This document shows positions 19,927-24,346 of a DNA stretch of 32,934 nucleotides, in pieces. Under the pieces are notes generated by a model, which searched no databases, was not told the DNA's origin, and saw nothing but the letters and a program-made list of their open reading frames with translations. The DNA comes from Candidatus Gastranaerophilales bacterium (GTDB taxonomy: Bacteria > Cyanobacteriota > Vampirovibrionia > Gastranaerophilales > Gastranaerophilaceae). The stretch covers positions 1 through 32,934 of the forward strand of contig CALUVP010000119.1 in assembly GCA_944324215.1 (NCBI GenBank), written 5' to 3'. Every line of letters starts with the position of its first letter. Positions within the stretch are counted from its first letter, which is position 1. The translations under genes were made by a program, and so were the position numbers.

Positions 19927-20931
19927 CTATCCGATATCCCATCTTCCGCAAGTACCGCCCCAACGAGCGATAATATTACCTTTAATATCACCGATTTTTT
20001 CAACGTGTCCGACTGGCTCTGCACCTTCTAAAATTGTGATAACTTCGCAGTTGTTCGAACATCCTGTGCACTGGCAAGTTACTGATTGGAAATTCATATT
20101 TCCGACTTCCCAACCCTTGAATTTTGTTTCAGCTTCTGTATATTGATGGTTTTCCATCGCAAGAAGCGCTGCACCTATTGCACCCATTGTTTGGTGGTTT
20201 TCAGGAACAACAATCTTTGTATTTAGAGCTTCTTCAAAAGCTTTAACCATACCGGAATTTGTAGCAACACCACCTTGGAAAGATATTGTAGGTAATAATT
20301 CTTTTCCAAGAGCCAAGTTTGAAAGATAATTTCTAACAAGTGCCTGACAAAGTCCGTATAATAAATCTTCTACAGGATAACCAAGCTGTTGTTTGTGTAT
20401 CAAGTCAGATTCTGCAAAAACTCCGCATCTTCCTGCTATTCTTGCAGGATTTTCTGAACGAAGGGCCGTTTCACCGAATTTCTCTATAGGAACATTTAAT
20501 CTTTGAGCCTGATGGTCAAGGAAGCTTCCTGTTCCTGCTGCACATACAGTATTCATCGCAAAATCTGTTACAATACCATCCCGAAGGATAATTATTTTAC
20601 TGTCTTGACCGCCTATTTCAAGAATAGTTTGAACTCCAGGGATATTTGTACTTGCAGCTACTGCGTGAGCTGTAATTTCGTTTTTAACAACATCTGCTCC
20701 AACAAGAGCTCCAGCAAGATTTCTTCCTGAACCGGTTGTTCCTACACCCTTTACTGAATATTCGCATAGTGCTTGTGACACAATATGTTTTAAACCTTGT
20801 TGCACTGCATCAACTGGCTTACCTGCTGTTTTTAGCATGTAAGAATCTATATACTTCCCTTTTTCATCAACTAAAGCTAATTTTGTAGTAACTGAGCCTA
20901 CATCAATACCCAAATAAACATCTAAACTCAT
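19927..20931 (-). CDS. HgdC/BadF-type acyl-CoA dehydratase activase (ATP-driven iron-sulfur protein)
   Basis: This is an ASKHA-fold ATPase of the BadF/BadG/HgdC family, whose members use ATP hydrolysis to inject an electron into 2-hydroxyacyl-CoA dehydratases or aryl-CoA reductases. The nucleotide motifs are [10 protein letters not shown] (8-17) and IGGQDSK (106-112). The two cysteines that bridge a [4Fe-4S] cluster in the HgdC dimer are present as C130 (NTVCAAGTG) and C169 ([10 protein letters not shown]). The C terminus adds a cysteine-rich unit C286-x-C288-xx-C291-xxx-C295 and C328, possibly a second cluster. No dehydratase subunit is in the window. GAAGGT precedes the ATG. It leads an operon with kdsA and aroA, an unexpected partnership for a radical-generating activase. 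Confidence 0.88.
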
Positions 20932-21182: not shown

Positions 21183-21226
21183 TTCGTTTCCTCCCTTTTG
21201 AGGGAGGATTAAGGTGGGTGCTTTTT
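21183..21226 (-). repeat. left palindromic repeat flanking the DUF559 gene
   Basis: An 8-bp stem (21189-21196 with 21201-21208; TCCTCCCT and AGGGAGGA) closes a TTTG loop. Over 44 bases it matches 35 bases of the reverse complement of the downstream 46-bp repeat, so the two face each other across the gene. Two of the differences are compensatory within the stem. The shared tail is GGTGGGTGCTTT or GATGGGTGCTTT. Confidence 0.8.
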
Positions 21227-21242
21227 GTGATAAAATTCTGGC

Positions 21243-21587
21243 ATGAATAATTTTGTTTTAAGAGCAAGAGAATTACGCAAAAATCCAACCAAGCAAGAAC
21301 GTATATTATGGAGTATTCTGAGAAAAAATCAATTCTATGGATTCAAATTTTTAAGACAATATCCAATAGAACCATATATTGTGGATTTTATTTGCAGGGA
21401 AAAGAAAATAATAATAGAAATAGATGGCGGACAGCATAATCAACCTGATGATATTGAGTATGATTTAGAGCGGACAAATTTTTTGAACTCCAGAGGGTAT
21501 AAAGTTATTAGATTTTGGAACAATGACATCGATAATAATATTGATGGAGTTTATAAAATTTTACAGCGTGAGTTCGGTATAATTTGA
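21243..21587 (+). CDS. DUF559 (Vsr-like, PD-(D/E)xK) endonuclease-domain protein
   Basis: The 114-residue product is a complete DUF559 domain. It starts with the basic helix RARELRKNPTKQERILW, continues FKFLRQYPIEPYIVDFICREKK and IIIEIDGGQH, then YDLERTNFLNSRGYKVIRFWNND. D48 and the E59-x-D61 pair are the likely metal-binding residues of a Vsr/PD-(D/E)xK nuclease. The in vivo role of this family is not established. No strong Shine-Dalgarno is visible; TGATAAAAT just upstream could be a -10 element giving a very short or absent leader. Palindromic repeats in opposite orientation sit directly on both sides, which suggests a small mobile or domesticated repeat-spreading unit. It has no partner methylase or toxin-antitoxin mate. 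Confidence 0.88.
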   Translation: MNNFVLRARELRKNPTKQERILWSILRKNQFYGFKFLRQYPIEPYIVDFICREKKIIIEIDGGQHNQPDDIEYDLERTNFLNSRGYKVIRFWNNDIDNNIDGVYKILQREFGII

Positions 21588-21589
21588 TT

Positions 21590-21770
21590 AGCACATATCT
21601 TAACCTTCCCTCACAAGGGAAGGAATAATTAAGAAAGCACCCATCCTAACCTTCCCTCACAAGGGAAGGAACGATAAAGAAAGCACCCATCCTAACCTTC
21701 CCTCACAAGGGAAGGAACGATAAAGAAAGCACCCATCCTAGCCTTCCCCCACAAGGGAAGAAATGTTACT
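21590..21770 (+). repeat. 46-bp tandem palindromic repeats, four copies
   Basis: Hairpin cores CCTTCCCT-CACA-AGGGAAGG begin at 21604, 21650, 21696 and 21742, exactly 46 bases apart. Linkers carry GAACGATAAAGAAAGCACCCATCCTAA in copies 2-3; copy 1 differs at its left end (ATATCTTAA) and in the linker after it (AATAATTAA). Copy 4 is decayed (CCTTCCCC with AGGGAAGA). The array fills the space between the DUF559 gene and the 3' end of pcrA. Confidence 0.93.
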
Positions 21771-21775
21771 CCCAC

Positions 21776-21801
21776 CCAGGATTTACCCCCAGGATTTACC
21801 C
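21776..21801 (+). repeat. 13-bp tandem repeat next to the pcrA stop
   Basis: CCAGGATTTACCC occurs twice in direct succession (21776-21788 and 21789-21801), followed by CCACC. It joins the 46-bp array to the pcrA stop codon and may be a worn fragment of the same repeat family. Confidence 0.7.
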
Positions 21802-21805
21802 CCAC

Positions 21806-24346
21806 CTAGAATTTTTTTAATCTCGCATAAGCTGCGTCCATAGCTTTTTTCCCGAGTTTGCCAAAATCTATTGTGTACATTGTGCTATCTCCGATTTGGA
21901 TTACATCCGCAATGTGTCCGACTCCCAATTTGTCGTGGAAAACTCTTTCTCCGACATTGAAGAAATATTGAGTAGTTGCATTTTTTAACTCTTCTTCAGC
22001 TTCTTGCTGTTTGGCGAGTTCTGCTTCATGTCGCTTTTTCTCTTCCAGTTTGCGCTTCATTATATTATCTTCAAAAAATGCTTTAATTTTTTCTTCTTCT
22101 TTTTCCTTGTTAAGCGGGCTTTTTTTGATAATAACTTTGCTCGGAGTTCTTTGAACTACATTTGTAGTCTTTTTTGCTGCAGGAGCTACAAAATTTGCGC
22201 CAAAACCGTTAGAACTTGATTTTGTAGATGGTGCAACAAAGTTTGCACCAAATCCTGATACCGGTTTAACGTAACCATCTGAATTTGTTTGAGCTTTGGT
22301 TTTACCCCAACTATTTGCTTCAGTCTTTGATTTGACTGATTTTACTGCGCTTGAGAAAGTACTTTCTCTTCTTGAATATTCCGAGAACGTGGATTCTTCT
22401 TGTTCTATTAGTTTAGAAGGTATTTCTTCCAAGAATCTGCTTGGTGAATAATATTTGTATTCACCCCACATTTGTCGGCGTTTGGCTGTTGTCAAGTATA
22501 ATTTAGTTTCAGCTCTTGTAACTCCCACATACATCAAGCGTCTTTCTTCTTCCAACTCTGAAAGGCTGTTTGAGCACCTTGCTGATGGGAAAATCCCTTC
22601 GTCACAGCCGGCTAAAAATACTATCGGAAATTCCAAACCTTTTGAAGCGTGCAAAGTCATCAAGGTAACATTATTTGCAATTTCGTCCATTCCGTCAATA
22701 TCAGATACCAACGAAACTTGTGCAAGGAATTCGCCTAAAGTGTTTTCTAATTCTTCAGGTTCAAATTCGTTTGCTACGTTTACAAGTTCTTGCAGGTTTT
22801 CAATTCTGGTTTCGTCTTCGTCTGTTCCTGATGCTTGGAGTTCTCTTAAATAACCGCTTTTTTCTAAAATCAAGCTCAAAAATTCCGGAAGTGAATATCT
22901 TTCCTGTGCTTCTTTAAGCTTCATAATCAAAGTTGAAAAGTCTTTTAATTTTGTTGCAGTACCTGATTTGATTGCAGAAATTTCATCAACATTCAATATT
23001 GCTGAAAACAGGCTTATATCTTGAGTGTCAGCATATTCCTGTAGGTGTTTTAAAGTGGCTTCACCGATTGCTCTTTTAGGAACGTTTATTATTCTTCTTA
23101 AAGACTGAGAGTCGTCCTGATTATAAATTAACTTTAAATATGCAATTGCGTCCTTAATTTCTTTTCTGTCATAGAACTTTAGACCGCCATAAATTCTATA
23201 AGGAATACCAGAGGCAATTAAAGCTTCTTCTAAAGCTCTTGATTGTGCGTTTGTACGATATAGAACTGCAAATTGGTTGTAATTATCTGACGTATCCTTT
23301 ATGGATTTAACTATATAATTTGCTTCATCAGCTTCGTCTTGAGCTTCATAGAGTGAGATTTTTTCTCCGTCACCTTTTTGTGAATACAAGACTTTGTCCA
23401 CACGCTCTTCATTGTTTTCGATTATAGCGTTTGCCGCATTAAGTATATTCGCTGTAGACCTGTAATTTTGTTCCAATTTTACCAATTTTGCTTTTGGAAA
23501 ATCGTTTTGGAAATTCATAATAATTCTAAAGTCTGCACCTCTCCAACTGTATATAGATTGGTCAATATCACCTACAACACAAAGAGAACGGCTTTCAGGA
23601 ACCTCTGGCTGCAGATTTGTATAAAGCGCTTTAACAAGCTGATACTGAGCTTGGTTAGTATCTTGGTACTCGTCAACAAGTATGTGTTGGAATTTGTCAT
23701 AGTACTTTTTACGAACTTCAGGATTTTGCTCTAGAAGTTTTACGCAAAGCATCAGCATATCGTCAAAATCTATTGCATTGTTTGTATTAAGTGCATTTTC
23801 ATAATACTCATAAATTTTTGCTATGTTTTGTGATTTAAAATCTCTGGCAAAAGTTGCAAATGTGTAAGCGTCCTGCATTTTGTTTTTGGAATTTGAAATT
23901 ACAGCCTTAACAAGCTTTGGCTGATAAATTTTATCATCCATATTTAGTTTTTTTATTGCTTGCTTAATTATTGCAAGTGAGTCAGTTTCATCATAGATTG
24001 TGAAATTCTTATCCAATTTTTTTCCGGATTGGAATGAATAATTCTCGATGTCTTGTCTTAAAATACGTCCGCAAATGCTATGGAAAGTACCTACCCACAT
24101 ATATTTAACAATGTTTTCTCCAAGAATAGAAGAAAGTCTTTCTTTCATCTCTTTTGCAGCTTTGTTCGTAAAAGTTACTGCAAGAATTTTTCCAGCAATA
24201 GCACCATTTTGAATCATATATGCTATTCTTGAAGTCAAAACTTTGGTTTTTCCACTACCGGCTCCGGCCAGTATTAATAAAGCTCCTTCTGTAGTCTTTG
24301 CAGCTTCAAGCTGCTCTCTGTTAAGGTTTTCTAAAATATTTTCCAT
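21806..24346 (-). CDS. pcrA: UvrD/PcrA-type DNA helicase
   Basis: This is a superfamily-1A 3'-5' helicase for repair and replication-fork clearance. The Walker A motif AGAGSGKT is at 27-34, TFTNKAAKEM (58-67) is motif Ia, DEYQDTN (225-231) is motif II, GDIDQSIYSWRGA is motif III, QNYRS (293-297) is motif IV, TLMTLHASKGLEFP is motif V and EERRLMYVGVTRA is motif VI. Its 846 residues exceed the usual 720-750. The extra length lies between the motor and the C-terminal Tudor-like domain (about 794-846; GERVFHDKLGVGHI). It holds a duplicated GFGANFVAP (starting at 698 and 714) and a highly charged Lys/Glu helix (about 740-790). The Tudor-like part is the RNA polymerase-contact region in known PcrA. 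The 3' end abuts the 46-bp repeats. Confidence 0.95.
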   Translation of the reverse strand: MENILENLNREQLEAAKTTEGALLILAGAGSGKTKVLTSRIAYMIQNGAIAGKILAVTFTNKAAKEMKERLSSILGENIVKYMWVGTFHSICGRILRQDIENYSFQSGKKLDKNFTIYDETDSLAIIKQAIKKLNMDDKIYQPKLVKAVISNSKNKMQDAYTFATFARDFKSQNIAKIYEYYENALNTNNAIDFDDMLMLCVKLLEQNPEVRKKYYDKFQHILVDEYQDTNQAQYQLVKALYTNLQPEVPESRSLCVVGDIDQSIYSWRGADFRIIMNFQNDFPKAKLVKLEQNYRSTANILNAANAIIENNEERVDKVLYSQKGDGEKISLYEAQDEADEANYIVKSIKDTSDNYNQFAVLYRTNAQSRALEEALIASGIPYRIYGGLKFYDRKEIKDAIAYLKLIYNQDDSQSLRRIINVPKRAIGEATLKHLQEYADTQDISLFSAILNVDEISAIKSGTATKLKDFSTLIMKLKEAQERYSLPEFLSLILEKSGYLRELQASGTDEDETRIENLQELVNVANEFEPEELENTLGEFLAQVSLVSDIDGMDEIANNVTLMTLHASKGLEFPIVFLAGCDEGIFPSARCSNSLSELEEERRLMYVGVTRAETKLYLTTAKRRQMWGEYKYYSPSRFLEEIPSKLIEQEESTFSEYSRRESTFSSAVKSVKSKTEANSWGKTKAQTNSDGYVKPVSGFGANFVAPSTKSSSNGFGANFVAPAAKKTTNVVQRTPSKVIIKKSPLNKEKEEEKIKAFFEDNIMKRKLEEKKRHEAELAKQQEAEEELKNATTQYFFNVGERVFHDKLGVGHIADVIQIGDSTMYTIDFGKLGKKAMDAAYARLKKF

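Follow-up and report, generated by a model that had tools for sequence, protein, structure and literature searches.

The window, by which we mean the whole analysed stretch of 32,934 nucleotides from a Candidatus Gastranaerophilales bacterium, probably harbours a small mobile element in one copy, in which a gene of the DUF559 family encodes the dedicated nuclease of the hairpin repeats at its sides. As judged by sequence, these repeats are BoxC/PIT "triplex motifs" (TM). This reading is carried by what sequence comparison brings to light, namely a unit with recognizable boundaries, the bracketing of DUF559 genes by TM across phyla, the covariation within the repeats, in-frame insertions with corresponding empty alleles, the co-occurrence of repeat and gene, and the predicted nuclease-type fold, and from these it appears that DUF559 acts on the TM and drives their movement. 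BoxC/PIT/TM repeats have been reported from more than 260 bacterial genomes and from E. coli K-12 with their spread unexplained, and the widespread nuclease family DUF559 has had no role assigned to it, so that a tie between the two gives each of them a likely function. No link of DUF559 or YcjD, its E. coli K-12 member, to BoxC, PIT or intrastrand triplexes was found in the open-access literature.

The DUF559 (PF04480) gene lies on the plus strand at 21243..21587 and encodes a protein of 114 aa that Pfam, AlphaFold and Foldseek assign to the PD-(D/E)XK nucleases of the Vsr/EDxHD-like type. To its left there is a single TM (21189..21219, plus strand) with the tail toward the gene, composed of a pyrimidine (Y) arm TCCTCCCT (21189-21196), a loop (21197-21200), a purine arm AGGGAGGA (21201-21208), a TTA linker, and the third-strand tail AGGTGGGT (21212-21219). 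To its right an array with a 46-bp unit extends from 21590 to 21764 (TRF: 3.8 copies, 92% matches, score 273) and holds four TM on the minus strand: copy 1, with a degenerate tail, immediately 3' of the stop codon (21590..21635), copy 2 (21639..21669), which reads CCTTCCCT-TGTG-AGGGAAGG-TTA-GGATGGGT, copy 3 (21685..21715), and a slightly diverged copy 4 (21732..21760). The left element is an inverted match to this array; the partner region is found at 21184-21224, the best arms are 41 nt long and 83% complementary, and the left-right flank score is 47 at this locus, as against a mean of 19, a 99th percentile of 29 and a maximum of 31 at random window positions. Repeat and Pfam analysis thus bear out the layout described in the first-pass annotation, a lone DUF559 gene with one element on the left and a four-copy 46-bp array in the opposite orientation on the right, and also the two compensatory stem changes claimed there are present (TCCTCCCT/AGGGAGGA on the left, CCTTCCCT/AGGGAAGG on the right). 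The host flanks are a BcrAD/BadFG family gene (19927..20931) and a UvrD/Rep helicase gene (21806..24346), both on the minus strand. From the homology boundaries of related units, the minimal mobile unit TM-DUF559-TM' would span 21184..21632 on the plus strand, and the array copies beyond it presumably arose as tandem duplicates of the right end.

In the 32.9-kb window, a scanner built on the triplex rule finds good motifs only at the DUF559 gene, and the 2.07-Mb source genome has three DUF559 genes, each with TM-type elements alongside (one of the genes is truncated at a contig end). Short G/C-rich motifs can occur by chance in G+C-rich genomes, but the window is A+T-rich with its TM at DUF559 only, reversed-pattern controls gave 0 in every genome, and the enrichment of flank repeats over controls is very large, which makes coincidence or a low-complexity artefact hardly credible. 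Also covered by the originally noted stretch, which ends at 21801, are two 13-bp repeats (21775-21800) that follow the array and have no relation to it. These two repeats contain most of a second short motif, ATTTACCCC / GGGGTAAAT, that occurs 94 times in 464,594 bp of loci versus once for a permuted 9-mer, at 21775-21804 of the window and in loci L001, L035, L176, L191, L209 and others.

The elements had been described as plain palindromes, and in this respect the description has to be revised, as the tail changes in step with the arm. The eight bases after the TTA linker track the arm, with AGGGAGGA going together with AGGTGGGT on the left and AGGGAAGG with GGATGGGT on the right, and when the window tails are laid antiparallel to the purine arm, G over G and A or T over A, 8/8 positions fit. 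The window elements thus comply with the rule that was tested, G*GC and A/T*AT in antiparallel orientation, which is that of a purine-motif intrastrand triplex. For the hairpins near DUF559 genes, the bases three positions downstream were taken with no match required (48 elements with G-rich tails), and the arm-tail match was 0.849 versus 0.671 +- 0.023 with tails shuffled (2000 shuffles, maximum 0.753). When the arms were anchored by the tail alone, stem pairing was 6.33/7 versus 5.48 +- 0.07. Covariation of the hairpin positions, which the first-pass annotation had proposed to look for, is thus found both in the stem and between tail and arm, each above its control value. Since arm and tail covary as they would if the tail were the third strand of a triplex, the window repeats belong with BoxC/PIT/TM, and the linker of such motifs either is three bases long or forms a further small hairpin. 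For the E. coli motif it has been shown that the TM strand forms a triplex in vitro; in the same work, an association with mobile elements was sought and not found, and no nuclease or other enzyme was named (PMC4666352).

The association with DUF559 is found far beyond the window. When genome contigs were scanned by protein sequence alone, 57 of 80 DUF559 loci had inward TM on both sides, versus none of 299 control ORFs from the same loci, and the TM background beyond 600 bp from the gene was 20 motifs in 267,644 bp. The clustering of repeat copies beside DUF559 genes, for which a search of related genomes had been suggested, is evident from these counts, and within the genus, 29/37 DUF559 loci have inward TM within 200 bp on both sides. 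By their record titles, the 80 loci come from Alpha-, Beta-, Gamma- and Deltaproteobacteria, SAR202, Dehalococcoidia, Dadabacteria, Gottesmanbacteria, Marinimicrobia and others. Six of the 80 carry the TM in reversed orientation and a few carry none. The reversed loci, with tails outward (L093, L096, L097, L104, L115, L123), mostly have a larger ORF of 370-473 aa and include in-frame insertions in an M14 peptidase and a GHMP kinase gene. In a comparison of flanks, inverted repeats above the 99th percentile of controls were found at 86/110 loci, direct repeats at 56/110, and either of them at 100/110. Since inverted and direct flank repeats are both common, a frequent layout is pair-gene-pair, each pair being two TM whose tails face outward; for E. 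coli, too, BoxC pairs in inverted arrangement have been described (PMC4666352). Left and right elements of one gene are more alike than those of different genes, with identical arms and tail in 27 of 62 pairs, and protein similarity correlates with element similarity (Mantel p about 0.001, uncorrected for shared ancestry).

TM loci have been reported to be genomically unstable (PMC4666352), and one may ask whether the TM are merely fragile, recombinogenic sites, with DUF559 as a passenger that is moved by homologous recombination between TM copies, which the direct repeats at 56 of the 110 loci would permit. Such a passive capture is unlikely, as other types of ORF are never bracketed among the 299 controls, whereas DUF559 genes have matched ends in a mostly fixed inward orientation across many phyla, and the element type follows the protein type.

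That the unit moves as a whole is well supported by comparisons of sequence. Among four loci whose DUF559 genes are related but whose sites are not (L001, L042, L061, L062), identity taken in 30-column alignment steps is 54-84%, mostly 70-84%, from hairpin to hairpin, falls to 20-40% outside, and breaks at the outer hairpin edges. As related copies are alike up to these edges and unrelated beyond them, TM-DUF559-TM' can be regarded as the mobile unit. Copies in frame split the genes of PrmA, HydF, MurD, a radical-SAM protein, ValS (in a Rickettsiales member), an M14 peptidase and a GHMP kinase. For PrmA, 38 genomes of the genus were compared, and the alignable empty alleles read straight through the insertion site; one species retains a hairpin-only remnant that encodes the peptide VYPLLEG, and another species has an in-frame insertion of a lone TM elsewhere in PrmA. 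The window site is also found without the unit: in the sister genome G018, the only genome with both window-site neighbours in the stretch that was read, the UvrD and BcrAD neighbours are retained with neither a DUF559 gene nor a TM between them, the intergenic DNA being too diverged to define the junction. Relatives thus do have unit-free sites, a point that had been raised as a check, in PrmA of sister species as well as at the window site. Neither a target-site duplication nor an exact base-level empty site was obtained, the sister species being too diverged. A Pfam scan of the split host proteins gave no intein domain, and intergenic copies such as that of the window need no splicing. In view of the in-frame copies in PrmA, HydF, MurD and ValS, one has to ask how a nuclease domain can be accommodated by essential proteins.

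As a rule, it is Y1 transposases that act on REP-like hairpin repeats (PMC8266576, PMC3733652), and conceivably a different enzyme, e.g. an IS200/IS605-like Y1 transposase, moves the unit in trans, with DUF559 as an accessory or as cargo. By Pfam scan and unit boundaries, there is no transposase gene in the unit; DUF559 is the sole gene within the boundaries and in the intragenic insertions, and the co-occurrence described below is with DUF559 itself (the count covered DUF559 genes only), so that movement in trans is an improbable explanation, even more so than passive capture. The other half of the original proposal, that the protein is spread with the hairpins, has held up, as homology stops at the outer hairpin edges, 57 of 80 loci are bracketed, the element follows the protein, and sites without the unit exist.

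On the level of whole genomes, more dispersed TM are found in the genus when DUF559 is present (p=4e-4, and p=0.02 when three per gene are subtracted; ancestry uncorrected), and the dispersed TM tend to be of the type that flanks the resident gene (rho 0.62, p=0.01, 16 genomes, again with ancestry uncorrected). A survey of 194 genomes of the phylum with two TM patterns, in which co-occurrence was tested within the phylum only and a strong DUF559 was defined by E<=1e-20, gave the same picture without correction for ancestry: TM were carried by 36/41 Gastranaerophilaceae with a strong DUF559 versus 10/46 of the others, and by 21/53 other Cyanobacteriota with a strong DUF559 versus 7/54 without. 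Wide dispersal with no relation to DUF559 genes had been named at the outset as one finding that would speak against the proposal; the repeats are dispersed genome-wide, but they are in excess where DUF559 is present. TM also occur in genomes with no detected DUF559, as in the genus genome G025 with about 30 copies, which are either orphan repeats or reflect an assembly gap, and in E. coli lacking ycjD, and as they persist there, TM may outlive a resident gene or do without one. In another genome (G006; contigs C5, C7, C10, C25, C54 and others), 73 matches to one TM pattern accompany a single DUF559 gene, and many of these TM are combined, at a distance of 54-59 bp, into inverted pairs that unite two different types of arm, like the BoxC A+B pairs of E. 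coli.

In E. coli K-12 the DUF559 gene is ycjD (L072:6408-6761). A canonical BoxC, CCCCTCACCCTAACCCTCTCCCCAGAGGGGCGAGGGG, lies some 170 bp from the 3' end of the gene, in an orientation other than the expected one, and, read by eye, a hairpin with a decayed tail spans the ycjD stop codon. Of 5426 E. coli genomes, 5375 have BoxC-like places (median 16) and 3365 have ycjD. Strains that lack ycjD hold eefRABCD at the fabI-sapF site (cf. PMC12817139), so that the search for a clean empty site of ycjD led to a replacement, not to a simple insertion. As ycjD sits where other lineages hold eefRABCD, a DUF559 unit may have joined in this exchange. BoxC pairs are themselves polymorphic, the phnP-yjdP pair being partly or fully absent in some E. 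coli strains. We take ycjD, from its sequence context, to be a partly decayed unit and thus a tractable but imperfect model, and with YcjD the putative enzyme behind a triplex-forming repeat becomes directly testable in laboratory E. coli.

The assignment of the window ORF (21243-21587) to PF04480 is clear (E=4e-39, 133 bits versus a gathering cut-off of 20.6), and the Pfam scan of the gene gives DUF559 and MTES_1575 only, with no Y1 HUH transposase domain. The AlphaFold model has a pLDDT of 90, and the nearest solved structures by Foldseek are a Neisseria DUF559 protein (3hrl), I-Bth0305I (3r3p, E=1e-5) and Vsr (1cw0, E=1.7e-3). Invariant residues in 22 sequences include E19, D48, E59, D61, H65 and D74. 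The predicted structure fits a metal-dependent enzyme that nicks or cuts DNA, its activity and specificity being inferred. Foldseek also matches mitochondrial ribosome proteins of Toxoplasma and Tetrahymena, and these matches suggest that a nuclease-like fold has been recruited in those ribosomes. Phage relatives of DUF559 were found in 6 phage records only, two of them annotated as homing endonucleases, and a link to phages is weak.

With its Vsr-like fold, DUF559 might also be an ordinary host repair or restriction nuclease, the hairpins then being terminators or expression signals, and for VsrA, a DUF559 protein of Caulobacter, a connection with DNA damage and with a cytosine methylase has indeed been described (PMC12907096). 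However, the TM occur in inverted pairs on both sides, are dispersed without the gene, show triplex covariation, and enter coding genes in frame together with the DUF559 gene, and earlier work is reported to have found no promoter or terminator activity of TM (PMC4666352), so that this explanation is very unlikely. A plain pair of terminator hairpins, an ordinary REP/RAYT system and chance were likewise considered and rejected.

It is thus a mobile element with its own nuclease that best accounts for the window locus, and that DUF559 acts on the hairpins, as initially suggested, is likely on the sequence evidence. DUF559 would recognize the folded TM, most likely on single-stranded DNA exposed at replication or repair, and would nick or cut at the TM or at the target; host repair would then copy the unit, or gene-less ends, to a new place. 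Dispersed gene-less TM would be the non-autonomous offspring, as REPs and REPINs are of RAYTs. The wider view, for which we see even chances, is that of a new class of transposable elements, in which a Vsr-like DUF559 nuclease recognizes intrastrand-triplex DNA and spreads its own gene along with gene-less TM across many phyla, including E. coli BoxC with YcjD, some lineages having adapted to an in-frame life in conserved host proteins. If cleavage were shown, the class of mobile element would be new, and should DUF559 prove to cut folded triplexes, a structure-specific nuclease of practical use would become available.

Several known systems share features with this unit. I-Bth0305I (3r3p), as a free-standing/EDxHD homing endonuclease, and Vsr have the fold predicted for DUF559, but unlike with homing endonucleases of the I-Bth0305I type, no intron or intein is apparent around the DUF559 gene, as far as the Pfam scan of the split proteins shows, and the unit occupies many unrelated sites and has repeat ends with dispersed copies. 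With BoxC/PIT/TM the repeats have in common a pyrimidine and a purine arm, a short linker (TTA, CCG etc.) and a purine third strand as well as the inverted pairs and dispersed copies; they differ in being the ends of a DUF559 unit, in arms that vary widely, and in a linker that may be a second hairpin. Rickettsia palindromic elements (RPE) are palindromic repeats that lie in frame in protein genes, as some of the TM do, and differ from TM in sequence and in the triplex design; RPE are not known to carry a nuclease gene. The RPE of R. conorii end in CGTC (PMC3733652). The REP/REPIN-RAYT system is the one to which the locus had been likened from the beginning, and as an analogy this likeness stands: in both, a single nuclease gene is situated amid inverted hairpin repeats with inverted pairs and dispersed non-autonomous copies. 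It does not extend to the enzyme, as DUF559 is a Vsr-like PD-(D/E)XK protein, whereas RAYT is a Y1 HUH transposase, nor to the repeat, as the TM tail is a triplex third strand where REP has a GTAG tag, and the DUF559 unit can moreover sit in frame inside genes. The DUF559 unit may be a second realization of the REP/RAYT design, unrelated to the first.
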